64,000 bases of DNA from the NCBI RefSeq assembly GCF_017377715.1, contig NZ_JAFVMF010000004.1, positions 124,001 to 188,000 on the forward strand. Direction: 5' to 3'. A model generated the notes under the pieces. The model made no database searches. It saw only the letters and a list, made by a program, of their open reading frames with translations, and was not told where the DNA came from. Of this stretch, positions 1-14,405 are shown piece by piece; positions within the stretch are counted from its first letter, which is position 1; the number at the start of each line of letters is the position of its first letter. Origin of the DNA: Acetobacter sacchari. Its GTDB lineage: Bacteria > Pseudomonadota > Alphaproteobacteria > Acetobacterales > Acetobacteraceae. The translations under genes and the position numbers were made by a program.

Positions 1-13
1 AGTTTTCCCCACC

Positions 14-607
14 ATGTCTGCGCCCATCTCCTCCGTCGCCGTGTTCTGCGGCTCCCGCTTCGGCAACTTGCCCGCCTATCGCGCCGCCGCCGAAGATATG
101 GGGCGCGGCATTGCTCGCGAGGGATGGCGTCTGATCTACGGCGGTGGTTACGTCGGGCTGATGGGCGCTGTGGCGGACGCGGCCATCGCGGCTGGCGGTT
201 CGGTGACAGGGGTCATTCCCGACTTTCTCGAATCGCGCGAGGTCATGCACGAAGGCGTGACCGAACTGGTGGTGACCGATTCGATGCACAGCCGCAAGCA
301 GCTCATGTTCGCGCAGGCCGATGCGTTTGCGATTTTACCCGGCGGGTTTGGTACTTTTGACGAGATGATGGAGATCATCACGTGGAAGCAGCTTCAACTG
401 CACCGCAAGCCCATCCTGATCGTCGATGTCGAGAACTGGGCGGCCAAAGTCATCGCCATGCTGGACGCGGCGGTCGAGCAGGGCTTCGCAACTCCCGGGG
501 CGCGTGGGTTGGTCGAAACCGTGCCTGACGTGGAAGCGGCGCTGGCGCTTCTGCGGGCCGCGACCATCACCCCGGGTTCGTCTGACGTCGAGACCGAGCG
601 CCTGTAA
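14..607 (+). CDS. LOG family nucleoside 5'-monophosphate phosphoribohydrolase
   Basis: This 197-residue Rossmann-fold protein belongs to the LOG (TIGR00730, 'lysine decarboxylase-like') family. Characterised members cleave cytokinin-type or other purine nucleoside 5'-monophosphates into free base and ribose 5-phosphate in the cytosol. The glycine-rich GGGYVGLMG is at residues 43-51, HSRKQ at 92-96 and the family signature PGGFGTFDE at 109-117. Length is normal and the ATG at 14 follows the window edge closely, so its promoter lies outside. It stands alone, about 100 bases before a tRNA gene on the same strand. The exact substrate cannot be read from the sequence. Confidence 0.9.
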   Translation: MSAPISSVAVFCGSRFGNLPAYRAAAEDMGRGIAREGWRLIYGGGYVGLMGAVADAAIAAGGSVTGVIPDFLESREVMHEGVTELVVTDSMHSRKQLMFAQADAFAILPGGFGTFDEMMEIITWKQLQLHRKPILIVDVENWAAKVIAMLDAAVEQGFATPGARGLVETVPDVEAALALLRAATITPGSSDVETERL

Positions 608-706
608 CGACGCCCCCTGCAGCCCGGGTTGCGGCGAGGGAGCCAAGGAATTTTTTGCCCCCTCTTGCGACGCGCGTGGATGAGGGGTATTAGCCCCGCA
701 CCACAT

Positions 707-783
707 CGGAGTGTAGCTCAGCCTGGTAGAGCACTGTGTTCGGGACGCAGGGGCCGGAGGTTCGAATCCTCTCACTCCGACCA
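707..783 (+). tRNA. tRNA-Pro (anticodon CGG)
   Basis: The cloverleaf can be folded by eye. The acceptor stem CGGAGTG pairs with CACTCCG, the D arm holds AGCTCAGCCTGGTAGAGC, and the anticodon stem CTGTG/CGCAG (one G-U pair) encloses loop TTCGGGA with anticodon CGG. The T arm contains GGTTCGAATCC. The discriminator A at 780 is followed by an encoded CCA at 781-783. It reads the proline codon CCG, a common codon in GC-rich genomes. Confidence 0.95.
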
Positions 784-1084
784 GGTAAACGCCGGAAAAA
801 CCGGCCATTCATGACATTCCCGAGGCCTTGTCCCCAAGGCGCTGTCATACCAGCCTTCCAAAAATCAAATGCCTGAAAGCGACGCAGCCACCATGAGGCC
901 GCGTTTCTGTCATAAACCAGTGACGTTTCGCGATTAGTCTTCATATCGCCGCGTCGGCTCTCCATATGGAACACGACGCGGTCGGGATCGTTTCGATCAG
1001 ACCGCCCCTGCGTCGCGCGCTTGCTCGTCGACGCGAGCGGCCTCCAGCGATCCGCTGCGATACGATGATTTCGGGAGAAACAAG
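784..1084. other. Intergenic stretch after tRNA-Pro
   Basis: I see no gene here. A nested inverted repeat, outer arms ATGACA/TGTCAT (811-816 and 843-848) and inner arms GCCTTG/CAAGGC (825-830 and 835-840), could end or process the tRNA transcript. There is no T-run after it. The last 15 bases carry the ribosome binding site of the next gene (GGGAGAA before the ATG at 1085). Confidence 0.4.
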
Positions 1085-1858
1085 ATGAGTCCGCGGCGTT
1101 TCTTACCTCTGTCGACCGTGTTGGCCTCGATGCTGATCTTCACAGCCCCTGCCTTGGCGCAACGTGGCGGCGGTGGGGGCGGTGGTGGTGGTGGTGGCGG
1201 CTTCCACGGTGGTGGTGGAGGCGGCGGTTTCCATGGCGGCGGCGGTGGCGGCGGATGGGGAGGACGCGGTGGCGGCTTCCGCGGCGGCGGCGGCGGTTGG
1301 GGCGGCGGTGGCGGTGGCGGTTTTCGTGGAGGCGGCTGGGGTGGCGGCGGCTTCCGAGGCGGTGGCTGGGGCGGCGGCGGATGGGGCTGGCGCGGTGGCG
1401 GCTGGGGTAACGGCTGGGGCTGGGGCGGCGGATGGGGAGGCTATCCCGGGTATTACGGTTGGGGTGGTTACCCAGGCTATTACGGTTGGGGCGGTTATCC
1501 CTACATGGGTGGATGGGGCGGCTGGGGCTGGGGCTGGGGCTGGGGCGCTCCTTTCGCCTTCGGTTCCCTGCTAGGCCTTGCTGCCGGAGCCGCCGCGACG
1601 TCCACATACGCCGACGGCGGTTATGGATATTCTCAGGGGTACGGCTACCCGGCCGCAGGATACGCCCAGCAATCCTACCCGGCTCCGGCGGCCGCAGCCC
1701 CGGCGTATTCCCAGCCGGGATACGGGGCCGCGACCTATGGCGGCGCGACCGCCTATCCGGCTCAGGCCTATGGCGCCAGTGCGCAGCCGAGCAATGTCGT
1801 GACGTGTTCGGCGGGCCTGTATTTCAACCGCCTGACTCAAAGCTGCGACCGGCGGTAA
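1085..1858 (+). CDS. Secreted glycine-rich low-complexity protein
   Basis: A 257-residue protein with a clear signal peptide (residues 1-25, ending PALA before Gln26). The mature part starts with a long Gly tract interrupted by FHGG and WGG units (about 27-140). A YPGYYGWGG repeat region follows (about 140-160), then a hydrophobic alanine-rich segment, a Tyr/Ala/Pro/Gln-rich stretch, and a C-terminal tail with two cysteines (CSAGLYFNRLTQSC) that could form a disulphide. No enzymatic motif is visible. Such proteins are usually periplasmic or surface structural material. The start is supported by GGGAGAA upstream. The DNA is built of GGCGGT/GGTGGC-like repeats, so its length may vary between strains. 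Confidence 0.7.
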   Translation: MSPRRFLPLSTVLASMLIFTAPALAQRGGGGGGGGGGGGFHGGGGGGGFHGGGGGGGWGGRGGGFRGGGGGWGGGGGGGFRGGGWGGGGFRGGGWGGGGWGWRGGGWGNGWGWGGGWGGYPGYYGWGGYPGYYGWGGYPYMGGWGGWGWGWGWGAPFAFGSLLGLAAGAAATSTYADGGYGYSQGYGYPAAGYAQQSYPAPAAAAPAYSQPGYGAATYGGATAYPAQAYGASAQPSNVVTCSAGLYFNRLTQSCDRR

Positions 1859-1884
1859 GCCTTAGGGTGGGGCGTCTCGCCCCG

Positions 1885-2613
1885 TCAGAGCCGCAGATGT
1901 CCGGCGGGCGTGGCGCATCCCGAACCACGCTTCGCCGGAACGAAGATCGTCACGCCGGATCCACGCAGGCACGAAACCCATCCACGGCGATGTGAGCGAC
2001 TTGCCTGCGGGACGACAGCGATATCCTTCCCGTAATGCGCCCCATCGGCTCGACGCGGTTCGCCCTGCCCTTCGTACACCCGAAAAACATCCAGCGCGTA
2101 GCGCCCGCCCTCGCGGGACGCCGCGTGATAACGCGCGACCGCCTCTCGCCAGTCCCCGGTCAACGCATGCAGGCGCCGCAGAAACAGCCCGGCGGCGATT
2201 CCGTTGATGACGGGATCGAACCCGGCACGCACGTTTGCAAAAGCGTCCGGATGCCAGGCGAGATCAATCTGGAAACACCCGATATCGACCTTCGGTCTGG
2301 CGCCCAGCGCCGACGGGGCGCTCATCACCCGCGCAGCCTCGCTCGCCATCGCCTCGTTCGGGAAACGCAATGCACGACCGTTCACGTTTACTGCAAGTGG
2401 ATCTCCGTCACTTTCAACCGTGGCGATCGCCCTGAGCAGGCCCTGCGGGATGTCGAGACTTCGCTCGACAATGTCCGCAGCTTCCCCGCACCCGAGCGGC
2501 GATGCGTGCGCGCCGGACGTCAGACAGAGCAGCAGCAGCAGCAGCAGCGTCGCCGCCAATCTCCGCCTCTTAAGGAAAGGAACCGGCATCCATACACGAT
2601 AGCCGTAGAACAT
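1885..2613 (-). CDS. Exported lytic transglycosylase-like (SLT fold) protein
   Basis: A 242-residue protein with a basic, leucine-rich signal peptide ending near SGAHA. The mature domain has the SLT/goose-lysozyme-like order: RAIATVESDGDP with the candidate catalytic Glu, then DIGCFQIDLAWHPDAF, then AAGLFLRRL...GDWREAVARYHAAS. Enzymes of this fold cleave peptidoglycan glycan strands in the periplasm. The second Met (residue 9, MPVPFLKRRR) gives a more typical signal peptide than the first, and neither has a strong Shine-Dalgarno. The last ~38 residues are basic and look unlike the domain (see findings). It converges on the glycine-rich gene with only 26 bases between. Confidence 0.7.
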   Translation of the reverse strand: MFYGYRVWMPVPFLKRRRLAATLLLLLLLCLTSGAHASPLGCGEAADIVERSLDIPQGLLRAIATVESDGDPLAVNVNGRALRFPNEAMASEAARVMSAPSALGARPKVDIGCFQIDLAWHPDAFANVRAGFDPVINGIAAGLFLRRLHALTGDWREAVARYHAASREGGRYALDVFRVYEGQGEPRRADGAHYGKDIAVVPQASRSHRRGWVSCLRGSGVTIFVPAKRGSGCATPAGHLRL

Positions 2614-2705
2614 TAGCGCTCGGTAAAAACCGTCTTCGCGTGTTCAACCGCGATACTCAGCGATGCTCTCTGAACAGTCCCGGGTATAGCAAGAAACCCC
2701 CGGGT

Positions 2706-3449
2706 TCACCCCGAAATGGACGCCCTTGCGGCAAGCATCAGGGCCTTCATTTCCCGCACCACCGACTCCAGCCCATCGAACACCGCCTGCCCGATCAGGA
2801 AATGGCCGATATTCAATTCGGCGATTTCTGGAATGGCGGCGACAGGGGCCACATTGCCGAAGCTCAGTCCATGCCCGGCATGGACCTCCAGCCCCAGCGA
2901 AGCCGCCTGCCGGGCGGCCTCCCGCAGGCGCGCAATTTCTCCATCGGCTCCTTCCGCGTAAGCGCCGGTGTGAAGCTCCACCACAGCCGCGCCGATCGCC
3001 GCCGCAGCCGCCACCTGCCTGGGGTCGGGGTCGATGAACAGCGACACCCTGCATCCACGCGCGCGCAGCGTTGCGACGGACGGCGCCAGCAAAGCCGCCT
3101 GTCCTGACACGTCGAGACCGCCCTCGGTCGTCACCTCCTCCCGGCGTTCCGGAACGATGCAACAGGCGTGCGGCCTCAGATCGGACGCGATAGCCACCAT
3201 TTCCTCGGTCGCCGCCATCTCCATGTTCAACGGAGCCCGGATTTCAGCACGCAATCTGGCCAGATCGGCATCGCGAATGTGGCGCCGGTCCTCACGCAGA
3301 TGCGCGGTAATGCCGTCCGCCCCGGCCGCCACGGCAAGAGCCGCCGCAGCCACGGGATCGGGGCCGGAGCCCCCGCGCGCGTTCCGCAACGTGGCCACAT
3401 GGTCGATATTAACGCCAAGGCGAATAATTCTGCTGCCCGGTTCGGTCAT
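2706..3449 (-). CDS. pdxJ: Pyridoxine 5'-phosphate synthase
   Basis: PdxJ condenses 1-deoxy-D-xylulose 5-phosphate with 3-amino-2-oxopropyl phosphate to close the pyridine ring of vitamin B6 in the cytosol. The 247-residue length fits the family. The N-terminal signature [13 protein letters not shown] is at residues 14-26, followed by [11 protein letters not shown], the strand [11 protein letters not shown], and HAGHGLSF with the late catalytic His region. Its ATG overlaps the stop of pdxA (ATGA at 3446-3449), so the two are translationally coupled. That fits their consecutive steps. Confidence 0.95.
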
Positions 3450-4441
3450 TCCGGCCTCTCCTGTAGGGACGAAGCCCGGTTGTGCGCCAGAGTTCCAGCA
3501 AGGCGCAACGCCGCGATCAGGCTGCCTGGCTGCGCGACGCCCTTTCCTGCGATATCGAACGCCGTCCCGTGGTCCGGCGACGTCCGCACGATCGGCAGGC
3601 CGAGCGTGACGTTGACCCCGTTCTCCATATCAAGCGTCTTCAGCGGAATGAGCGCCTGATCGTGATACATGCACAGGGCTGCGTCGTAGCGCGCGCGCGC
3701 CGCAAGCGTGAACATGGTGTCGGGGGGCACAGGCCCAAACACATCGACGCCTTCGGCTTTCAGCCGCGCGATCGCGGGGGCGATCAATTCGATCTCTTCT
3801 CGTCCCATCAGGCCGCTTTCGCCCGCATGCGGGTTAAGGCCCGCGACGGCGAGGCGCGGATTCGACAAACCGAAGTCGCGCCGTAACGCCGCCACAGTGA
3901 CGCGCGCCGCCGCCTCGATCGCCTCCCCCGTCAATGTGTCCAGCGCCTCCCGCAACGAGACGTGCACGGTGACCGGCACGACCCGCAGCATGGGACTGGC
4001 CAGCATCATCACCTCCTGTCCCGGAACGCCGCAGAGTTCGCCAAGAAACTCCGTGTGGCCCGGATGCGGAAAGCCCGCCTTGCGCAACACCGCCTTGCTG
4101 ATCGGGTTGGTGACCACGGCGCCCACCGAACCTGCCCGCGCGAGGCCCACCGCGCGAGAGATGCTGTCGATGACCGCCGGGGCGTTGGCCTCGTCCGGAG
4201 AGCCCGGCAGGACGGGCGTGAAGAGTGGAGATTGCAGCACCGGGATCGCTCGAGCGAAACAGGCTGCGGCGCTCGCAACGTCGTCGACGATTTCGACCGG
4301 CACATCTCGGGGCAGGCAGGAAGCATCGCCCAGAAATGCGAACGCGGGCCCCGTTGCCCGCAATGCCCGCCATGCGCCTACGGTAATCTCCGGACCGATG
4401 CCGGCAGGATCTCCCATTGTCAGGGCGAGTGGCTGCGTCAC
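3446..4441 (-). CDS. pdxA: 4-hydroxythreonine-4-phosphate dehydrogenase
   Basis: PdxA oxidises 4-phosphohydroxy-L-threonine with NAD(P)+; the product decarboxylates to 3-amino-2-oxopropyl phosphate, the substrate of PdxJ. The N-terminal motif [13 protein letters not shown], the GHTEFL metal-ligand region and the [11 protein letters not shown] region are all present. The frame stays open up to an ATG at 4471. I choose the GTG at 4441 because it gives the usual family start ([15 protein letters not shown], 331 residues) and forms a four-base GTGA overlap with the stop of the upstream peptidase gene, mirroring the ATGA overlap with pdxJ downstream. Confidence 0.93.
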
Positions 4442-5826
4442 GCCGACAACGCCTGCAGCACACGTACCCACGAGCGGATTCCCTTGTGAAAGGACGTCAG
4501 GCTGTATTTTTCGTTTGGCGAGTGAACGCGATCGTCATCCAACGCGAACCCGATCAGCAGTGAGTCAATGCCAAGCGCCTGCTTCAGTTCCGAGACGACC
4601 GGAATAGATCCGCCGCAGCCGATCACTGCAGCCTGCGTCCCCCACTCGTCGGTCAGGGCTCGCAGCGCTGGCTTCAAGGCGGGCAGATCTTCAGGAACGA
4701 CGCTTGCCCGAGAGCCGCCGTGCGCGATGAACTCCGCCGAACAATCCACAGGAAGGCGTGTTTGCACATGCGCGCGGAAAGCCGAGCGGACGGCGTCCGG
4801 GTCCTGCTGCCCGACCAGACGAAACGATATCTTGGCCGACGCGCGCGCGGGCAACACAGTCTTGAACCCATCCTCCTCATACCCGCCTGAGATGCCGTTG
4901 ATCTCGCAGCTGGGGCGGCACCAGGTCTGTTCGAGGGCGGTGTACCCTACCTCTCCCGCCGCCTGGCTCAACCCGACCGCGCCAAGGCTTTCCTCATCCG
5001 TCGGGCCGAGGGTGCGCCACTGCTCCCGCACCGCTTCCGGCATCTCAGGCACGCTGTCGTAGAAACCTGCCAGCGTGACGCGCCCCGTCGCCGGATCGCG
5101 CAGGTCGGAAATAATGTCGCAAAGAACCTGGATCGGGTTACGCGCCGCATTGCCGAACATGCCCGAATGAAGATCGCGGTCGGCCGCCGTGATGATGACT
5201 TCTTCGCCCACCATGCCGCGCAGCATCGTCGTGATGGCGGGTGTTCGCGCGTCGAGCATTCCCGTGTCGCAGATCAATGCGAGATCGGCTTTCAATTCCT
5301 CGCGGTTGGCCAGCAGGAAGGGCAGCAGGTTGGCGCCGCCCGATTCCTCCTCCCCCTCGATCACGATCGTCACGCTCACCGGCAATCCGCCTTCCGCCTC
5401 ACGCAACGCGCGGCAGGCTTCGACGAACGTCATGACCTGTCCCTTGTCGTCAGACGCGCCGCGAGCGACGATTTCTTTCGCGCCTTCGGCATTCTCCGAA
5501 AGACGAGGCTCAAACGGCGGCGTCGCCCAGAGATTGAGCGGGTCGACGGGCTGCACGTCGTAATGACCGTAGAACAGCACATGCGGCGCGCCCTCCGGGC
5601 CCTTCGCATGACCGACGACGATCGGGTGGCCGGGTGTGTCGCGCACGGAGGCGTCGAAGCCGATCGTCGTCAGTTCCTCACGAAGCCACTCGGCCGCCGT
5701 GCGACAATCCCCGGAGCGCGCAGCTTTAGTTGAGACGCTCGGAATGCACAGGAGGGTGAAGAGGCGCTCAAGGGCGGCGTCCAGGTTCCCATCCACGCGG
5801 GCGAGAACTGCAGAATGATGACTCAC
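4438..5826 (-). CDS. M20 family dinuclear metallopeptidase (dipeptidase)
   Basis: A 462-residue cytosolic zinc peptidase of the M20/ArgE-DapE-carnosinase type. Visible metal and catalytic motifs are FYGHYDVQP (85-93), RGASDDKGQ (122-130, bridging Asp), EGEEESGG (157-164, catalytic and metal Glu) and a late [12 protein letters not shown] with the C-terminal metal His. The length and the absence of a signal peptide match the Xaa-peptide dipeptidase branch better than DapE. Its stop overlaps the start of pdxA (GTGA), so it heads a three-gene unit with pdxA and pdxJ. The link to B6 synthesis is by co-expression only. Confidence 0.85.
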
Positions 5827-5939
5827 TTAGATATTCCCATTACCCCATGTTCTCATGAAGGATTACGGCATTCCCACGCATCTCACCAATGTCGAATTTA
5901 TGGAAAATATTCACGCGTCAGAAAATTACCAATGCAATT

Positions 5940-7199
5940 TCATTGCATAGACGAAATTTTATGACGTAGACACGCAATTACGTGACTCTCGAAAGCCACA
6001 CCGCGATCACTCGTATAGTCGGAGATTGTATTCCAGCCATAATCTTGCGGATATGGTAAATGCTTATAATAAACATTGTCATTGTGAGGAAATGACATTT
6101 TTTCTCTAGTGGTATTAAGTAAAAATACGTTAACATCGTCACCAAATCGATGCCTCAAAGAATCAATCAAATAATAAGGGTTACCCTCTCCACAGAAATT
6201 GACAAAATATAGAATTTCAGACGCTTTAATAACTTCTCTGAATCGAGCAATTCTACGACGAAATCTTCCCAAAGTATCAGACAAGGATTGTTCGTAACTT
6301 TCGTATGGAAGCGGGTTGTGAGCGAAATGCACTCCGGTTGGAGAATGGAAAGGCACGCGAATGCCTCCACCAAATGGTCGGGCCGAAAAATTGGAATCAT
6401 CATCAAATATAGAGAAATCCGCTCTCAGAGCCTCAGAAGACGAGTCCTTCGGGAATGCAGATTGGTCGTAAGGAAGAAAATCTAGCGGATCATCAGAAAG
6501 CCCCCAACGAGCAGAGACCGTTGCAGGCAGGCAGTTCTGTCCCACGGACACGATTTTAACTGGCTTTGCTAACTTCGCCATCCACGCTTTGTTAGCAAGC
6601 GCGTTTAACGGCGCAATCAAAGCATTGTTTATATTGACGCCGCAGACCACCGACTCTTCGGAAATTTTTTTCTGAAATTGATTCAAAAATTCACAAATTT
6701 TTTCGTGAAGACCGCAAGCGCCCAGAGTAAAAACTATCGCTGGTACAATAACCCAGACATTAGAATCTAAAAAAAATTTCCAATTAGTGTCGATAAAAGA
6801 AACGAGCTCATCCCACTTTTCCAAATCTCTCATGAGGATGAATTGCTCAGTCAAAAACAGAATACCGTCCCCCTGATTTGGAGGGTACAAGACGGCGCAT
6901 TCACGGAACCTTTCTAGCGCTCCTTCCAGATCGCCAATGAGCCTAGGATACTTCGCCCACTCCAAATTAATTGCATGATGTTCTGGAAAATAACGCCGAC
7001 TTTCATTCAAAACATAAGATAAATCACCATAATTTCTAGCGATTTTCAGGGTTGACACTGCATGCCACGCGATATCTACCTCACCAGGAAACCTCCTAAA
7101 CGAGTCGGCCATAAAACCAGCAGCCTCCTCAACATCGCCTTCACTCTGCATTTTATTTGATTTATAAATTACTTCCTCTACAGATTTTCTATCAAACAT
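5940..7199 (-). CDS. TPR-like plus DUF1796-type (papain-like) protein, copy A
   Basis: A 419-residue protein and the last gene of the AT-rich block. Residues about 1-130 are helical TPR-like repeats. The C-terminal domain opens with KIVSVGQNCLPATVSARWGL (candidate nucleophile Cys223), continues with DPLDFLPYDQSAFP and GVHFAHNPLP, and ends with LLNTTREK and DYGWNTISDYTSDRGVAFE. This order (SLG/SVG-x-x-C-L-P, FD-, H-, late D-Y-x-W-N) is the pattern of DUF1796, annotated in Pfam as putative papain-like cysteine peptidases. The assignment is from memory of the family. The start overlaps the end of copy B by eight bases. It is the most divergent of the three copies. No secretion signal is seen. 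Confidence 0.7.
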   Translation of the reverse strand: MFDRKSVEEVIYKSNKMQSEGDVEEAAGFMADSFRRFPGEVDIAWHAVSTLKIARNYGDLSYVLNESRRYFPEHHAINLEWAKYPRLIGDLEGALERFRECAVLYPPNQGDGILFLTEQFILMRDLEKWDELVSFIDTNWKFFLDSNVWVIVPAIVFTLGACGLHEKICEFLNQFQKKISEESVVCGVNINNALIAPLNALANKAWMAKLAKPVKIVSVGQNCLPATVSARWGLSDDPLDFLPYDQSAFPKDSSSEALRADFSIFDDDSNFSARPFGGGIRVPFHSPTGVHFAHNPLPYESYEQSLSDTLGRFRRRIARFREVIKASEILYFVNFCGEGNPYYLIDSLRHRFGDDVNVFLLNTTREKMSFPHNDNVYYKHLPYPQDYGWNTISDYTSDRGVAFESHVIACLRHKISSMQ

Positions 7200-8478
7200 G
7201 AGATATTTTCTCTATATCTTTCTTTATTGCGTTGATTATTTTACCTTCAAAAACAATACCTCTATCCGAACTAAAATCCGACAAACCATTCCACGAGTAA
7301 TCGCGCGGCATCGGGATATGAGTGTAAGAAACATTCGATCTTACGGGGCAAACCAGACTCTCTCTAGTCAAATTCAACATTACAATTCTATGGTTTTTAT
7401 CTCTTATTATCGGATAAATTTCTTCAACAAATTTTTCGATTTCACATGGACCAACTATACCGAACACCAGAATACAACGCTCGTTATTCAAAGCAAATCG
7501 AAACGCCTCTATTTTCATTTTCATTAACGAATGAAAATTTGATTTGTCATCCCCAATAATCGTCCGACCGCGCTCATGCCCAAAATGGACACCGCTAGGA
7601 CGATGATGCATTTGCGGAGCACCAAACGGCGTCATAGCCTCATAGTAAGTATTCACATCCAGAAATTCAGAAAAATCGCTAGATACAGCGCTGGCAGCTG
7701 TATTGCGTCCAAACGCGCCAAGATCAAACGGAGTGATTTTTGCATGATCGCCAGGGAAAAGCGTTAACCCCCACCGATTGGAAACCGTAAAAGGTAAACA
7801 ACTCTGCCCTAGCGAAAGCACACGGATATCTCTTCCATCCCCCGATATACCTTTCAACCAACGCCTGTTCCAGACCGCCGCTTGCGCGACGCTGCGTAAA
7901 TTTGAGACGTTAATATCACCGGAGACCCCGGAAGGATCATCCAGCAAATCTACTATACCATCTAAATAAAGAGACTCACGCTCATAATCTCCCAAAGCAT
8001 CTAGCGCATAATATACCGCTGCAACACAATCTATCCGATTCTTTAATAAATTCCAGTTATAATCAAGAAGAAGCGTAAGGTCATCATATCGCCCCATCTC
8101 GATTAGTGGTAAAAACTGCTCGGTTACCAACGGAATAAAACGCTCGTCGCTGGCTGGATCATATAGCTTAAGCATTTGACTACGCCGCGCAATCGCGACA
8201 TCCCAAGTAGCTCTCGCGTCAAATGAGCGTGTCCACTCAAGTACGAAACCAGGGTCGTTGGGAAACAAAGTCAAACATTTTTCGTTATAAGCATCGGCTT
8301 CGTCAAAACATCTGATCCGTCGCAAGGTGCTTAAAAACTGCCACCAGATGCCGCCATCATCCGGGTAATCCTCGACTAAACTGCGGAATCCCTCGCAAGC
8401 CTCGTCGTAATCACCATTTGTGAGCGCCTCATAAGCAACCGTGAATCTCTCTTCCTTAGATCGCACTTCAACAGACAT
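7192..8478 (-). CDS. TPR-like plus DUF1796-type (papain-like) protein, copy B
   Basis: A 428-residue paralogue of its two neighbours. The N-terminal repeat region includes NGDYDEACEGFRSLVEDYPD, a canonical TPR-like helix pair, and a second unit around residues 55-80. The C-terminal domain has RVLSLGQSCLPFTVSNRWGL (Cys227), ITPFDLGAF, GVHFGHERGR, MLNLTRES and DYSWNGLSDFSSDRGIVFE. Cys, His and Asn are in the order expected for a papain-like triad. GGGA lies upstream of the ATG. It sits 15 bases after copy C and overlaps copy A, so all three are probably co-translated. Function is unknown; the family name suggests protease or acyl-transfer chemistry. Confidence 0.7.
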   Translation of the reverse strand: MSVEVRSKEERFTVAYEALTNGDYDEACEGFRSLVEDYPDDGGIWWQFLSTLRRIRCFDEADAYNEKCLTLFPNDPGFVLEWTRSFDARATWDVAIARRSQMLKLYDPASDERFIPLVTEQFLPLIEMGRYDDLTLLLDYNWNLLKNRIDCVAAVYYALDALGDYERESLYLDGIVDLLDDPSGVSGDINVSNLRSVAQAAVWNRRWLKGISGDGRDIRVLSLGQSCLPFTVSNRWGLTLFPGDHAKITPFDLGAFGRNTAASAVSSDFSEFLDVNTYYEAMTPFGAPQMHHRPSGVHFGHERGRTIIGDDKSNFHSLMKMKIEAFRFALNNERCILVFGIVGPCEIEKFVEEIYPIIRDKNHRIVMLNLTRESLVCPVRSNVSYTHIPMPRDYSWNGLSDFSSDRGIVFEGKIINAIKKDIEKISHV

Positions 8479-8493
8479 CGATTTTTCCCAAAA

Positions 8494-9765
8494 TCAAAGA
8501 ATCTTCAACATTTCATGCTTCACTTCAGAAACAACCTTGCTTTCGAAGGCGAACCCTCGCTCTGAAGCAAAACCCAGCGGCTCATTCCACGCATAGTCAA
8601 CTGGATACGGCACATCGACATAACGAACGTGCTGAGAATTCAACTTAACCGAGAATTTTTCTCTCGTAAGATTAAGCATCAACATTCTACTACGCCCGTC
8701 CTTTAAATACGGCACCATCGCATCGATAATTTTATTAGGAGAGCACGGACCCGCTATGGCATATACAAATAAACACGGCCCCTCGTTTACTGCACTATAA
8801 AATGCATCAATTTTACTTTGCATACCTTCAAAAAAAAGATCGTAATTCGAGCCTAATAACGAGCGTCCACGTTCGTGACCAAAATATATACCTAAATATC
8901 GGTTCCACAACTGTGGAGCTCCATATTGGTCAGGGCGCTCATAATAATTATCGCGATTCAGATAAGCTCCAAATTTGGTGCAAATAGCGTCTGCAAGCAA
9001 ATCTTGATTTGTGATCCCCAGATCAAACGGTGTCATAGCGTTATGCATACCAACACATCGGTTTAGTCCCCACCTGCCCAAAATATTGTAGGGCAAGCAT
9101 AGCTGACCGAGAGATAGCACCCGCATATGAGACGCATACTTCTTTACCCAAGCATGATTTAATACAGCCTCGTCAGCGATCAATCGCATATTGGCGATAT
9201 TACGTTGATCAAAAACTGGATCATTTGGATCGACCCAACGAGAAAAATTTTCGCAAAATTTTGCTCTCAAAGAATATAAACCTGCAACCTCATACCCATA
9301 AAATATTTGAGCAGGGTCAACTTTTGCGGAAAGAAGCACATCTTCGTATTTATTCACAAGACTCAATAGTTCGTCGAATCTACCACAGTACTTCAACGGC
9401 AGAAATTGCTCATGTATCAAGGGCAGCAATTCGCTTTTTTTTGATACGTCGAACAAACCCAACATGCGCTCTCGCCTCCTCACAGATTCTGCCCAATCTG
9501 CTACGGCGTCCGGTATCCTAGACCAACCAAGAATGTACCAAGAATCATCGGGAAATAAACTTAGACATTTTTCAAAAACTTCATCTACTTTTTTATAATG
9601 ACGCAACCTATTTAAAACAGATATGTACTGAATCCACGCCCCAGAATCATCTGGATTACGTTTCGTGAGCTCATGGAATACCTCACAGGCCTCCTCGTAA
9701 TCACCATCCTTCAACATTTCTTCAGCAGAAGAAAAAAGATCGTTGTAATCTCCTGTTAATATCAT
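8494..9765 (-). CDS. TPR-like plus DUF1796-type (papain-like) protein, copy C
   Basis: First of three tandem paralogues, 423 residues from the ATG at 9765. This start is preferred over an in-frame GTG at 9780 because GGGGA lies about eight bases before it. The TPR-like unit KDGDYEEACEVFHELTKRNP is near residues 20-40. The C-terminal domain has RVLSLGQLCLPYNILGRWGL (Cys223), MTPFDLGI, GIYFGHERGR, MLNLTREK and DYAWNEPLGFASERGFAFE. It resembles copy B more closely than copy A. Base composition is AT-rich with A/T third positions, unlike the flanking core genes, suggesting acquisition. It lies 83 bases after the secreted-protein gene. Confidence 0.7.
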   Translation of the reverse strand: MILTGDYNDLFSSAEEMLKDGDYEEACEVFHELTKRNPDDSGAWIQYISVLNRLRHYKKVDEVFEKCLSLFPDDSWYILGWSRIPDAVADWAESVRRRERMLGLFDVSKKSELLPLIHEQFLPLKYCGRFDELLSLVNKYEDVLLSAKVDPAQIFYGYEVAGLYSLRAKFCENFSRWVDPNDPVFDQRNIANMRLIADEAVLNHAWVKKYASHMRVLSLGQLCLPYNILGRWGLNRCVGMHNAMTPFDLGITNQDLLADAICTKFGAYLNRDNYYERPDQYGAPQLWNRYLGIYFGHERGRSLLGSNYDLFFEGMQSKIDAFYSAVNEGPCLFVYAIAGPCSPNKIIDAMVPYLKDGRSRMLMLNLTREKFSVKLNSQHVRYVDVPYPVDYAWNEPLGFASERGFAFESKVVSEVKHEMLKIL

Positions 9766-9847
9766 CAGATAATTCCCCACAATAGAATCTAAACCAGTTA
9801 AAAAAAGAGAACAAAATACAAAGAGATGCCAATTTTATAATATTCAC

Positions 9848-10858
9848 TTACTTCATAACAACCTCCATACCAATTTGACTTTCTGTATTTATACCATCAT
9901 CTGGCAGATCTTTTTTACCCTCTGGTCCACTCGCTGAAACACCATGAATCACACAATCCCCAACACGCAAAGCAATCGGACTTACTGGAGCAAAATAGAA
10001 CGGTAAATTTGGATGAGAATTTCTTAATCCATGAAGTGTCACAGAATGAAGACGCTCCGTATTTTTTTCGCGTATAAATTTATCAAGAGTTTGATTGTCA
10101 GTATACATTCCGTCGGTCGGAAATTGTGGGCATCCCCCCCTTTGAATGTAAACGGAATGTATTACATGCCACGCTCCCGATGGGATCCGATTTGCAGCCC
10201 CTTCCCCAGCAATCGCCACGACGTTTCCATACAATTCAGTTAATTCCATATCACGAATTACGTGAAAAACCTTATAAGCTGTTTCCAATCTTTGCGGAGA
10301 CATCAAAAACTCATCTGATAAGACGCCCACAATATCAGCTCTAATTCTCTCATCCGCATTAACTGTCGTTAAGCGCAATTGAGCTGACATTCTATACGGA
10401 TTGCCAACAAAATCAGACCCGTCCATAACTATATACAAACATTTGGACAGTGGAATCGGCGGATTCCACTTCATATGAACCTGCACCACTTGATTACCAA
10501 TAGATGCCTGCTTTACAATTTCAGCCATCAAAGTATAGCTTGGGAATTGTTTATTTATTTGTGGATAGTCTCCCAAATCCTGACCAGATTTCGGGCAGGA
10601 TGGCGTATTACTTACATGCAGTGAGATCAACGCCTCGCTAAACATCTTCGAATTTGCGCCTGTTTCGACGTATCCATCCAATGCAACAGCAGCTTGCCCG
10701 GAGGGAATAAGCACGGGAAACATCGGCTTACTCGTCAACGTTTTTGTCGCAGTCGAAACGTCCGCACTTATAAGAAATTCGTTGCCCTCAGACCACGCCG
10801 GGTGACAGCTCCACCAAGAAAAAAAAACCAGGAGAGAAGAGCAAAGATAACGCGACAT
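9848..10858 (-). CDS. Secreted protein of unknown family
   Basis: A 336-residue protein I do not recognise. It has a short signal peptide (MSRYLCSSLLVFFSWW..., probable cleavage after HPAWS). The mature part is mixed in character, without transmembrane segments or long repeats, and has four cysteines (NTPSCPKS, LSKCLYIV, RGGCPQF, VGDCVIHG) that could form two disulphides in the periplasm or outside. No catalytic motif is obvious. AGAGGG lies about ten bases before the ATG. It sits between the FkbH-like gene and the three DUF1796-type genes on the same strand and has the same AT-rich composition, so it probably belongs to the same system. Confidence 0.65.
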   Translation of the reverse strand: MSRYLCSSLLVFFSWWSCHPAWSEGNEFLISADVSTATKTLTSKPMFPVLIPSGQAAVALDGYVETGANSKMFSEALISLHVSNTPSCPKSGQDLGDYPQINKQFPSYTLMAEIVKQASIGNQVVQVHMKWNPPIPLSKCLYIVMDGSDFVGNPYRMSAQLRLTTVNADERIRADIVGVLSDEFLMSPQRLETAYKVFHVIRDMELTELYGNVVAIAGEGAANRIPSGAWHVIHSVYIQRGGCPQFPTDGMYTDNQTLDKFIREKNTERLHSVTLHGLRNSHPNLPFYFAPVSPIALRVGDCVIHGVSASGPEGKKDLPDDGINTESQIGMEVVMK

Positions 10859-10900
10859 TGCGATTTAGCCCTCTACTCTCCAACCACCTTCACAATTAAC

Positions 10901-12685
10901 TCAGCTGCTCGCCAATGCGACAAACGTTTCCACCGCAGCTGGAGATTGAGTCAAGTCGAGTTCCCACAAATTTTCGTCTACCAGCACAAAACCAAGCTGA
11001 GCGTAAAGTTCTGAAACAACTGCATTTTTTGCAGTTGCTTGGTAAGAGCCAACAATTTTAGTTATTCCTCTAGCAACGCTCGCAGCAATAACTTCGTTAA
11101 TAATAAACTGCTCGAAAGTTCGAGAAAACACCCGACAACTCATAACCCATTCGACGATACGAAGTTCTTTACCTTTAGCTTCGCCTATAAGCACGGAGAC
11201 AAGCCCATGGTCGCCAAATTTGTCTTTGAGCGAGCATGCAAAAACAATATTTTCTTCGTTCGCGAGATAAGCGCGAATCGTCTCCTCGTCGTATCGCCTT
11301 GTTAATAAGTTAAACTGATTTGTCTTCTGGCCGAGCTGAACAACACGCTCTATCTGATTTTCCTCTGGGCGCAGAACCATCCCCACCATCTCAAGTCCCT
11401 TGAGATAAGTAGGTAAATCTGTAGCAGAACTTTGTTCCACCAGAGCCGCTGCGCGGGCACTATAAGCGCCCGTACGGGAAAAATCCTCTCGACTATATTT
11501 TTGAAATTGAAACCAATACCCATCTTCGATTTTCGTTACAAAATCAGCAGGATCCCCATCAAGATGCACTGTGGCAACCATGGGCAACTCTTGTTGAACC
11601 AACCCACATTCCACAGGGTTATCATCCACAAACACGAGCGAATCCAAGCCGATATTGAGGTTCTTAGCGATTTTTCGGAGACCCGATGCTTTATCGCCCC
11701 AAGAGCACTCGAATGCCGCAAAGTCTTCATATTTCAAAATACTAGCAATATGCGCAAACCCGAGCTTAGCGATCTCCGGATCGTTTTTACTACATACAGC
11801 CAAAATAACGCCGCGGGCAGCCAGACTTTTTACATACGCTTGGAACGCGCTAAACGCTTCCGAACGAGCGTCGGAGGTACCCAACTTAATACCATCAACT
11901 CCGTCGTCGCCTATAACACCACCCCAAAGAGTATTGTCCAAATCCAGAACGAGAGCTTTCTTCACCGTATTTAACGCGCCACGTAATGCGGAGCGCAATA
12001 AAGGCACGTAACCAGGCAGGCCACTATTTTCTATTGGTAATTTTGCCCCATACCAAACACGTGGAGCGAATGTTGATTTGCTCCCATTCTCCAAGGCAAA
12101 TTGTTCCAAATCAAGCATTTGAACGCCATAGGTTTCAGCGTTCCACAATTTTTCAAACAATGACCGAAGTTGATTACTGTATGAGACTGGCAAGAATTTT
12201 TCCGCCAATCCTGTAAGTCTATAAGGCGGCGGCGGCGGGAATTGATGAACGATCTTAACGCCCAATGTCTCAGTGAGGCGCTTCCATATTGAGAGAATCT
12301 CGCTAACCTTTGCGTCAACAATTAACGCAACTTCATCATTTGAAGCCGAGGGAGGGATATCAGCAACGAGGCTATGCCAGTCTGAGACAATAAGAACTAT
12401 ATCGGGTTTAATAGAATAGAGTTCAGAGGCCGGATTTAGAACATCCTGCATAAACGCCCCGTAGAGCGACTGACTTACCTTGGGACGCAGACCTTCCTGA
12501 GCGCAAGCGACAGCAACACAGCGCAACAGCATATCAGTTGTCGCTGTTCCCATTACGTGAACTTTTATCTCTCGAGCGTCGGCCACCTCAGGAAATGGCC
12601 AAGAGCCAGAAACTATTCGCCCACCCAGCGACAAGATATCAGCAAGAGATGGCGTGACTTTTGAGCGGAAATCATTGTAAATCAT
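10901..12685 (-). CDS. FkbH-like HAD-IIIC enzyme (predicted glyceryl-ACP synthase)
   Basis: A 594-residue protein with the FkbH layout: an N-terminal SGNH-like region (about 40-230), a HAD domain with the nucleophile motif LVLDLDNTLWGGVIGDDG (DLDNT at 248-252), and a C-terminal GNAT-like region. Characterised FkbH proteins take 1,3-bisphosphoglycerate, dephosphorylate it and load the glyceryl unit as a thioester on a partner acyl carrier protein. The partner is probably the small ACP gene 44 bases upstream. No polyketide synthase is in the window, so the glyceryl group is more likely used to decorate a glycan, protein or small metabolite. GAGG lies before the ATG. Enzyme class is confident; the end product is not. 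Confidence 0.85.
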   Translation of the reverse strand: MIYNDFRSKVTPSLADILSLGGRIVSGSWPFPEVADAREIKVHVMGTATTDMLLRCVAVACAQEGLRPKVSQSLYGAFMQDVLNPASELYSIKPDIVLIVSDWHSLVADIPPSASNDEVALIVDAKVSEILSIWKRLTETLGVKIVHQFPPPPPYRLTGLAEKFLPVSYSNQLRSLFEKLWNAETYGVQMLDLEQFALENGSKSTFAPRVWYGAKLPIENSGLPGYVPLLRSALRGALNTVKKALVLDLDNTLWGGVIGDDGVDGIKLGTSDARSEAFSAFQAYVKSLAARGVILAVCSKNDPEIAKLGFAHIASILKYEDFAAFECSWGDKASGLRKIAKNLNIGLDSLVFVDDNPVECGLVQQELPMVATVHLDGDPADFVTKIEDGYWFQFQKYSREDFSRTGAYSARAAALVEQSSATDLPTYLKGLEMVGMVLRPEENQIERVVQLGQKTNQFNLLTRRYDEETIRAYLANEENIVFACSLKDKFGDHGLVSVLIGEAKGKELRIVEWVMSCRVFSRTFEQFIINEVIAASVARGITKIVGSYQATAKNAVVSELYAQLGFVLVDENLWELDLTQSPAAVETFVALASS

Positions 12686-12729
12686 ATTACTTGCCTCACG
12701 CCATCTAACATAATTAAGAATTCAGAAAA

Positions 12730-12978
12730 TTAACCAACTTTTTCAATTACCAAAGCTTCCAACTTGTGAAAACTTTTTGTCTCACCAATCAAATCCAATC
12801 CAAGTTTGATGCCGAACTCTTCATCAGTTAAGGTAAATAGAGAAAGTGTGGCGAGGGAATCCCAACCGTCTGTATTTTCCATAGTGGCTTCAGGGATTTC
12901 TTCTCCTGACTTCGCAGGGAACATAATCATGAAAACGCGAGCCAGGCGCTTACGAATACGGTCGGGTGCAACGCTCAT
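12730..12978 (-). CDS. Acyl carrier protein, partner of the FkbH-like enzyme
   Basis: An 82-residue acyl carrier protein. The phosphopantetheine attachment motif is DGWDSLATLSLF with Ser41, followed by the acidic helix TDEEFGIKLG. It is not the fatty-acid AcpP: it lacks the usual DSL-D-V-E-L helix and lies beside an FkbH gene, as stand-alone glyceryl-carrying ACPs do. I choose the ATG at 12978 over an in-frame TTG at 12990, because GGAG sits six bases upstream of the ATG. That GGAG is buried in a perfect inverted repeat (12982-13000). It is the first gene of the AT-rich block. Confidence 0.82.
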   Translation of the reverse strand: MSVAPDRIRKRLARVFMIMFPAKSGEEIPEATMENTDGWDSLATLSLFTLTDEEFGIKLGLDLIGETKSFHKLEALVIEKVG

Positions 12979-12981
12979 ATC

Positions 12982-13000
12982 AATCTCCAAACTGGAGATT
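12982..13000 (-). promoter_or_regulatory. Hairpin covering the ribosome binding site of the ACP gene
   Basis: Perfect eight-base arms (12982-12989 and 12993-13000) around a three-base loop. In the transcript it reads AATCTCCA-GTT-TGGAGATT directly before GAT-ATG. The Shine-Dalgarno GGAG lies wholly in the 3' arm, so folding would hide it. It may set or switch translation of the whole operon's first gene. Confidence 0.5.
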
Positions 13001-13123
13001 TGTTATATCACGCACCTTCAAAAAGGCTAGAAGGAGCTTGGTGAGCGAATAAAAATATAATTTCAAATATTTTTAAATAGAATCCGCGGTCGGTAGCGGG
13101 GATTTATTTTGAGATATATACGT

Positions 13124-13155
13124 AAAAAGAGGCCACTCATAATGAGTGACCTCTT
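13124..13155 (-). terminator. Rho-independent terminator of the tonB operon
   Basis: On the minus strand an eleven-pair stem with one mismatch (arms 13043-equivalent positions 13129-13139 and 13143-13153, loop TAA) is followed by five T residues (13128-13124). It lies just after the stop of the TPR gene at 13170, at the exact edge between the GC-rich tonB operon and the AT-rich block. It should insulate the two. Confidence 0.85.
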
Positions 13156-13169
13156 GTGATGCCTACTGC

Positions 13170-14405
13170 TTACCTCTTTGACTGCAGCTTAAGCGCCCAA
13201 AGCTGGGCGATGTCGCGCGCGCCGTTATCCCCCTCGACGGAGTTAAATGTCGCAATCGCGTCCGCAGTCTTGCCCGCAGCAACCTGGGCCAGTCCAAGAT
13301 GCAGCTTCGCCACGTTAACGTCGAAAGGCCCCTTTGCGATGCCCTTCTTGATCAGAGCAAGCCCTTTGTCAGCCTGACCAAACGTCACGTAGTTGTAGCC
13401 TACGGTAATCAGCGCATTGCCACTCGGTGCTTTTTCTGCCGCAGCCTCATCGGCAGCAATCGAAGCCTTCTTGTCGTCAATCGTCTTGACCACAAGCGCC
13501 TTCAGCTTCGCTTCACGCGCAGCGCCAGCATCCTTGCCCAAAGCTCCGAGCGCATAGCCTTGGTTCATGATGTCCAGCGCGACCTGAGGAAGGCCAGCCT
13601 GCATCGCGATTTCCGTGGCGTCCATGAAGTCGGCCGTGGCAGTCAGGTTTCCGGCAGCTATACGAATTCGATAAAGATCCAGCTGCAAAGCTGGCGGAAG
13701 CTTGGAGTTGGTCTCCAGACCGTGCAGCAACTGCGCCCAATATTCCGGCTTTGGGTAGTACTTCGCCAGAAGAACATAGGTGTGGGTCATCCCACCCGTG
13801 TCCTTCAACTGAGTCTGGCAAGTCGCCAGAAGCTGCAGCTGGCTCTCGGGCGGAACCTTGTTCGCCTTGATATCCGCGTCGATCATGTCCTGCTGAACAC
13901 GCGCCGCGTTCTTGAAATCCTGCTGGAGGTAATAAGACTGAACCAGCAACGTCTGCATCTGCGCGTTGGGTCCGACCTGCTTCAGGTACCGCTCGGTGGC
14001 TTTAACTGCCTGCGGGTAGTCCTTCGCAGTGTACGCCATCGTCGCTTCGGCCATCATCATCTGGGCCTTGGCGTCCTTCGGCGTGCGCGATGAAGCGATC
14101 AGCGTATCATAGGCCGAAGTCGCGGCCGGAGCGTCGCCAGATTGCGCAGCAACCGCGGCGCGCATCTGCGCTACGGTATACGTCTCGTAGTCAGATTTTC
14201 CCTTGATCGCGTCGGCTTCGTTCACAGCCGCCATCGCCTTGGGGTAGTTGTGCGCAGCCAGAGCAGACTGGGCGGCCTGAAGGGGCTTGCCTACCTTGGC
14301 GCTGAGAGCGTCTTCGGCGCTCGCCATTGGTGCAGTAGCCAAAGAAACAGGCAAACAGAAGACAGCGCCCGCAAGAAGCGTCAGGCGCGAAAAACGAAAC
14401 GACAT
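13170..14405 (-). CDS. Exported TPR protein of the TonB cluster
   Basis: A 411-residue protein with a signal peptide (about 1-30, ending MASA). The rest consists of alanine-rich helical tetratricopeptide-like repeats (for example AQSALAAHNYPKAMAAVNEA, QQDFKNAARVQQDMIDADIK, ALDIMNQGYALGALGKDAGA). It is probably a periplasmic scaffold. It is the last gene of the tonB-exbB-exbD-exbD run, four bases after the second exbD, and ends at a terminator, so it is very likely part of the energising system or its regulation. AAGGG lies upstream of the ATG. No enzymatic motif is seen. Confidence 0.8.
   Translation of the reverse strand: MSFRFSRLTLLAGAVFCLPVSLATAPMASAEDALSAKVGKPLQAAQSALAAHNYPKAMAAVNEADAIKGKSDYETYTVAQMRAAVAAQSGDAPAATSAYDTLIASSRTPKDAKAQMMMAEATMAYTAKDYPQAVKATERYLKQVGPNAQMQTLLVQSYYLQQDFKNAARVQQDMIDADIKANKVPPESQLQLLATCQTQLKDTGGMTHTYVLLAKYYPKPEYWAQLLHGLETNSKLPPALQLDLYRIRIAAGNLTATADFMDATEIAMQAGLPQVALDIMNQGYALGALGKDAGAAREAKLKALVVKTIDDKKASIAADEAAAEKAPSGNALITVGYNYVTFGQADKGLALIKKGIAKGPFDVNVAKLHLGLAQVAAGKTADAIATFNSVEGDNGARDIAQLWALKLQSKR

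Follow-up and report, generated by a model that had tools for sequence, protein, structure and literature searches.

A horizontally exchanged cassette in Acetobacter sacchari links an FkbH-acyl carrier protein module to DUF1796-like proteins and may supply glyceryl groups to envelope glycans

An AT-rich block at positions 5940-12978 of a 64,000-nucleotide stretch of Acetobacter sacchari DNA (assembly GCF_017377715.1, contig NZ_JAFVMF010000004.1, positions 124,001 to 188,000; the whole stretch is hereafter called the window) comprises six minus-strand genes encoding, in order, an acyl carrier protein (ACP), an FkbH-type enzyme, a probable secreted or periplasmic protein (SEC) and three paralogues resembling the DUF1796 family (DUF1, DUF2 and DUF3). 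FkbH-ACP systems are already known; what is new here is a complete module of this kind tied to a DUF1796-like family that has no assigned function. In Acetobacter the ACP, FkbH and DUF genes look like one unit, and the block that carries them is a horizontally exchanged cassette.

The six genes are separated by gaps of 44, 42, 67 and 15 bp, with an 8 bp overlap between DUF2 and DUF3. The block has a GC content of 0.435, against 0.654 in the left flank (1-5826) and 0.622 in the right flank (13170-64000); of all 7039-bp stretches in the window, the one with the lowest GC (0.433) begins at 5806, and the minimum away from the block is 0.587. The original prediction, which had described six tightly spaced minus-strand genes of lower GC than their flanks, was therefore accurate in coordinates and composition. 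The upstream gene, encoding a TPR protein, is followed by a terminator hairpin lying upstream of ACP (13115..13175, minus strand), with a 13-bp stem followed by a T run (z -5.0, none of 200 shuffles as good); this hairpin is absent from the list produced by a separate pattern scan. As so strong a terminator follows the TPR gene, the six genes probably start a transcript of their own. The promoter matches of that pattern scan were no commoner than in shuffled sequence, and none stands out. No direct repeats were found at the block ends; three repeat families were detected, all between the DUF genes.

The FkbH-type enzyme (10901..12685, minus strand, 594 aa) contains an FkbH_N domain, a HAD part with the motifs DLDNT and DDN, and a C-terminal part with an invariant cysteine in MSCRV. 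It scores 269.1 bits against TIGR01686 (curated cut-off 146.65) and 36.1 against FkbH_N (PF21211, cut-off 27), and it matches 3slr, a Bacteroides protein, in the PDB (E 3.5e-44). DLDNT, CSKN, DDN and MSCRV are invariant in all six aligned orthologues, a split gene in genome G033 being excluded. Judged by the two profile scores, the identity of the protein as an FkbH is certain. Catalytic roles have been assigned both to the HAD motifs and to the cysteine of the C-terminal part in FkbH enzymes, which take glycerate from 1,3-bisphosphoglycerate and load it onto an ACP.

The adjoining ACP gene (12730..12978, minus strand, 82 aa) is listed as an open reading frame (ORF) starting at TTG 12990, and the ATG at 12978 agrees with the start in relatives. 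The protein carries a DSL serine, within GWDSLATLSLF, that is kept in all six ACPs compared (window and five relatives). ACPs 74-77% identical to it adjoin FkbH in five of six relatives, and the sixth (locus L025) was recovered with a profile (E 2.1e-54). Comparison of the window ACP with the PDB gave weak ACP matches only (best E 0.15), and a PF00550 scan at E 0.05 gave no match in it or in the orthologues at L021 and L024. The ACP adjoining FkbH in genome G868 matches the window-type ACP profile (E 1.1e-10) and passes PF00550 (21.8 against 20.8 bits). The DSL serine, the ACP-like length and the place beside FkbH suggest that the window protein is a divergent acyl carrier protein falling below the Pfam threshold. 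The ACP and the DLDNT-bearing FkbH-like enzyme of the original prediction are thus borne out.

FkbH-ACP pairs are known from small-molecule pathways, best from those making tetronate polyketides. The block could accordingly be read as part of a tetronate-type small-molecule or lipid pathway, in which glyceryl-ACP would serve as extender and the DUF proteins would release or cyclise the product. Scans of 20 window proteins, of which six belong to the block, and of neighbours in relatives revealed no polyketide synthase, the whole genome not having been searched, and this explanation is the least probable of those weighed here.

The three paralogues combine an N-terminal region of TPR type with a C-terminal DUF1796-like domain: DUF1 (8494..9780, 428 aa) with Cys228 and His302, DUF2 (7192..8478, 428 aa) with Cys227 and His301, and DUF3 (5940..7199, 419 aa), the most divergent, also retaining the cysteine and histidine; all three are on the minus strand. 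DUF2 is 39% and DUF3 26% identical to DUF1. Against a Pfam cut-off of 23.5 for the TPR, DUF1 scores 37, DUF2 falls just under at 22.3 and DUF3 has no match. For PF08795 (DUF1796, cut-off 23 bits), DUF1 scores 14.1, DUF3 12.9 and DUF2 gives no match, and a closer relative, L140, reaches 31.7. In hhalign, the C-terminal halves, compared as a profile, match four proteins above the PF08795 cut-off with a probability of 97.9% (E 6e-13) and line up the GxxC, PFD and H-D/E motifs. These results indicate that the paralogues are divergent DUF1796 relatives, judged homologous by profile although below the Pfam membership score.

Cys227, His301, G224 and G237 (DUF2 numbering) are invariant in all 28 aligned copies, and the four-protein DUF1796 alignment likewise retains the cysteine and histidine. 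An invariant Cys and His are compatible with either an acyltransferase or a thioesterase, and the two are indistinguishable here. The predicted model of DUF2 (pLDDT 84.5, pTM 0.83, from 8 sequences) is helical in its N-terminal half and alpha/beta in its C-terminal half. A Foldseek comparison with viral models picked out five proteins of giant viruses that bear the name papain-like cysteine peptidase (E 3.3e-4 to 4.0e-2), the output giving no aligned range for the model. The Cys/His/Asn signature and TPR repeats of the original prediction hold in part, namely for the cysteine and histidine throughout and for the TPR in DUF1. Recent tandem duplication of the DUF genes is ruled out by the paralogue tree, in which they form three separate deep branches outside the other Acetobacter copies, the placement of DUF3 being unsure on its long branch.

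These features also allow the DUF1796-like proteins to be thioesterases or peptidase-like hydrolases, freeing glyceryl or editing misloaded ACP. The same invariant Cys and His would serve such an activity, and the Pfam name of the family is that of a papain-like peptidase. Yet three old, strongly diverged paralogues in one operon would fit several acceptors better than one editing step, and DUF copies also adjoin glycosyltransferase genes away from FkbH, making a hydrolytic role distinctly unlikely.

DUF genes were found in 7 of 49 Acetobacter genomes and orthologous FkbH (E <= 1e-150) in the identical seven, with 16 further genomes giving weaker FkbH matches only; the ACP adjoins FkbH in all seven. 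A contig search with the DUF1 sequence alone gave no match, and a search with a DUF profile gave six loci, one of which (L034) matched in the TPR only; it showed that A. sicerae, A. oeni and Acetobacter sp. UBA5411 carry the same genes. The gene order is DUF-ACP-FkbH in G027, and in the other five relatives ACP-FkbH is convergent with DUF. The set is compact, taking up 3.5-3.6 kb in each of five relatives; it measures 5.3 kb in G018, which has an insertion, and 7.0 kb in the window.

In a tree of one flanking gene, M20, for which 28 of the 49 genomes have a close match, five of the seven module genomes form one clade, and G000 and G027 stand for two further lineages; each of the three has module-free relatives beside it. 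These lineages are a better argument for association than Fisher's test on DUF/FkbH co-occurrence (p 1e-8), because the test ignores kinship. ACP, FkbH and DUF look like one unit in Acetobacter, since the same seven genomes have all three, in differing gene order, and represent three lineages. The neighbourhood search proposed with the original prediction thus showed strict linkage within the genus, and the linkage did not extend to DUF loci in the rest of the family, as set out below.

The site itself is variable. In the sister genome G011, the M20 protein is 93% identical to that of the window, and the DNA is 95.4% identical up to the stop codon of the TPR gene and 89.9% identical leftwards from 5788. 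Between these matching flanks G011 holds 5100 bp of other AT-rich DNA (GC 0.44; L108:6523-11622), which gave no blastn match to the window cassette at E 1e-3 and encodes a 699-aa GT61 glycosyltransferase and a 243-aa ORF without Pfam match. The G011 genome has no match to DUF, SEC or FkbH. In the window the exchanged stretch (5789..13169, no strand) runs from just past the stop codon of the TPR gene into the opening 40 bases of M20. At the same site elsewhere, the TPR and M20 genes lie 244 bp apart in G018 and are separated by a gene for a TonB-dependent receptor in G027. The block is thus a horizontally exchanged cassette, swapped with a glycosyltransferase cassette at the same site. Anti-phage defence and phage origin were both ruled out, the six proteins having no PADLOC and no PHROGs match; plasmid origin was likewise not adopted, as DUF2 and SEC gave no tblastn match in a plasmid collection, the other four proteins not having been tried.

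Such a variable site, occupied in the sister genome by another AT-rich cassette, is also what an accidental AT-rich island would produce, its genes sharing a place and not a function. That ACP, FkbH and DUF keep company in three lineages while their order and neighbours change makes this very unlikely.

A link to glycans comes from second DUF genes, present elsewhere in four of the seven module genomes. In the three of these four that were scanned, the second DUF gene is followed, after 15, 26 and 262 bp, by a low-GC gene that matches Glyco_tranf_2_4 and GT92. The original statement that no polyketide synthase or glycosyltransferase is nearby holds for the 20 window proteins, and is qualified by the GT61 gene at the sister site and by these GT2-type genes.

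The pairing was also followed outside Acetobacter. A family scan found the DUF C-terminal domain in 11 other Acetobacteraceae genomes, of which four have FkbH elsewhere in the genome and seven have no FkbH match anywhere. FkbH is common, being present in 76 of 299 Acetobacteraceae genomes, 74 of them outside Acetobacter. The DUF profile matched one of 14 FkbH stretches examined outside the genus, L187 of G611, a genome of another genus, where FkbH, ACP, DUF1796 (26.3 against 23 bits), two GT2 genes and a PfkB-cytidylyltransferase gene lie within 10 kb. The ACP profile matched 8 of 10 stretches in one FkbH set, about 3.5 kb away at L184 and L190. In a class-wide profile scan of 289 genomes the only full-length match was the window's own, 11 others matching the TPR part only, and PF08795 is rare, occurring in 3 of 299 genomes of the phylum. 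The pairing is thus a feature of Acetobacter and at least one further cluster, not of the whole DUF family, given that DUF stretches outside the genus lack FkbH and ACP and that the family-wide association is weak (figures below).

We consider it possible, with chances a little short of even, that glyceryl-ACP acts as donor, with the DUF1796-like proteins working as cysteine acyltransferases that decorate an envelope glycan, all encoded in a horizontally exchanged cassette. This reading builds on what the genes encode, on the two invariant residues and the kinship with DUF1796, on the joint presence in three lineages and on the exchange at the site. By analogy with known FkbH enzymes, FkbH would take a phosphoglyceryl group from 1,3-bisphosphoglycerate, remove the phosphate and load D-glycerate onto the cassette ACP. 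The Cys-His site of the DUF1796-like proteins would then accept the glyceryl group, or a close hydroxyacyl, from the ACP, and each of the three proteins would hand it on to a position or acceptor of its own, on an envelope glycan or on the cytoplasmic precursor of one, a division of labour that fits their deep separate branches. The TPR half may bind the ACP or a glycan enzyme, and SEC would be an accessory without an assigned role. Transfer to envelope sugars is proposed because a dedicated ACP and three Cys-His proteins of one family occur together in a glycan context. The original prediction had made glyceryl-ACP the donor and the DUF proteins acyltransferases or thioesterases; the joint occurrence in 7 of 49 genomes and the invariant Cys and His agree with this, and the choice between the two activities was left as it stood.

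Several observations weigh against glyceryl transfer by the DUF proteins. Conservation does not extend to the third residue of a classical triad, the candidate N397 of DUF2 being Asn in 12 of 28 copies. The top Foldseek viral match of the DUF2 model is a protein named glycosyltransferase, from Pyramimonas orientalis virus, and just two viral matches reach E <= 0.001, again with the aligned range of the model not printed. The best 50 of 1147 PDB matches of the model are TPR or TPR-bearing proteins by title, with no solved relative of the C-terminal half and no papain-like enzyme among them. The cassette itself lacks a glycosyltransferase gene. The linked DUF gene of G018 (L022:5209-8295) is split by a 589-aa ORF, and FkbH of G033 (L026:8287-10072) lies in two ORFs of different frames and is likely a pseudogene, which together indicate that the module can be lost. 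With Acetobacter-built profiles, FkbH and ACP were found in none of the 12 DUF stretches from the 11 genomes outside the genus, four of which (L138, L141, L142 and L144) are on short contigs or near contig ends, and the FkbH/DUF association among the 299 Acetobacteraceae genomes is weak (6 of 13 against 70 of 286, p 0.10).

The last two results, with the seven outside DUF genomes lacking any FkbH match and the second DUF copies adjoining GT2-type genes, would suit an arrangement in which DUF acts on glycans without glyceryl-ACP, FkbH-ACP serves an enzyme encoded elsewhere and the genes travel together as a glycan-variation cassette. This is unlikely in view of the three Acetobacter lineages that share the set in reshuffled order, and of the four genomes that have a second DUF copy and also retain FkbH-ACP-DUF. 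More generally, DUF1796 proteins of bacteria and giant viruses could be cysteine acyltransferases that move acyl groups from ACP or other thioesters to glycans, Acetobacter pairing them with a dedicated glyceryl-ACP supply in a traded cassette; this wider proposal is rather doubtful.

Comparison with described systems places the block among FkbH/glyceryl-ACP systems (TIGR01686) in having the domain above the curated cut-off, the HAD motifs and its own adjoining ACP; it differs in its DUF1796-like partners, FkbH_N domain, likeness to 3slr and lack of a polyketide synthase among the scanned proteins. It resembles DUF1796 (PF08795) in the profile-profile match with aligned motifs and perhaps in fold, going by the Foldseek matches to giant-virus proteins so named, and departs from it in the sub-threshold scores of the paralogues, their long TPR-like N-terminus and the FkbH-ACP linkage in Acetobacter.

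Di-O-methyl-glyceric acid is described on a Campylobacter flagellin sugar (PMC3068675), and an fkbH-domain gene, cj1302, appears in a C. jejuni gene-content comparison in a paper on flagellar glycans (PMC7099621); the parts of these two sources consulted do not tie the gene to glyceric acid. The fkbH-domain gene is a feature shared with the block, as would be a surface sugar bearing a glyceric acid derivative; the sugar and carrier differ from those proposed for the block, and the consulted parts of the sources describe no role for DUF1796. WcbI, the nearest precedent in terms of role, is a cysteine-bearing capsule enzyme proposed to acylate a surface polysaccharide with the help of a partner not yet known; it binds CoA and showed no acetyltransferase activity in its authors' assays (PMC4104973), a further point against the acyltransferase role. 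The likeness to WcbI is one of role only, in that it is cysteine-bearing, would move an acyl group to a surface polysaccharide and awaits a partner, and no homology is claimed; it is unlike the block in binding CoA rather than a dedicated ACP. WcbI did not appear in the Pfam scan of the window proteins or among the best 50 of 1147 PDB matches, no direct comparison having been made. An open-licence literature search returned no paper naming DUF1796 or joining FkbH with polysaccharide and ACP or with O-antigen, and it turned up neither the FkbH-DUF1796 pairing nor the TPR fusion nor the exchange site.

If glyceryl transfer is correct, it would give the 'papain-like' DUF1796 family its first job, acyl transfer from a dedicated ACP, in a concretely testable form. 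It would also offer vinegar bacteria as a source of glycerate-decorated sugars and illustrate how the exchange of a cassette can alter the cell surface.

The surroundings of the module vary among relatives. At four of six loci (L021, L023, L025 and L026) it adjoins type II secretion genes by Pfam (secretin, or GspE/GspF). The L022 flank holds an 801-aa ORF equal in size to the type II secretion neighbour of other relatives, and neither of the two flanking genes scanned in G027 is of this type. The 589-aa ORF in the G018 DUF gene resembles an insertion-sequence gene by eye and is a candidate only.

The remaining gene of the block, SEC (9848..10858, minus strand, 336 aa), has no match in Pfam, NCBIfam, PHROGs, PADLOC or the PDB, and its profile matched nothing in the PDB up to E 5, in keeping with the description of a signal-peptide protein that falls in no known family, the signal peptide having been assigned by eye. 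A single-sequence structure model was uninformative (pLDDT 33.5). Close homologues (48-50%) occur in five of the six other module genomes, always far from the module (a different contig, or over 500 kb of separation); the sixth, G027, yielded none, and weak matches (E 1e-10 to 1e-19) occur in four module-free genomes. SEC co-occurs with the module (6 of 7 against 0 of 42 genomes), which may mostly reflect shared ancestry. Its proposed part as acceptor or surface partner is not supported, and SEC was rejected as a dedicated partner, as homologues lie elsewhere in the genome and distant relatives have varied neighbours. A distant homologue adjoins glycosyltransferase genes in G001. In the genus g437, at the two of its four loci that were scanned (L207 and L211), a pair of paralogous genes, each about 650-680 aa long and with F5/8 type C (sugar-binding-like) domains, comes after one; L208 and L212 resemble these in layout. 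In G817 (L209:7293-13240) another has a phage portal gene on one side and a capsid-like gene (below cut-off) on the other, suggesting that SEC relatives may travel in prophages, and in G062 a further one lies about 1 kb from a transporter permease gene.

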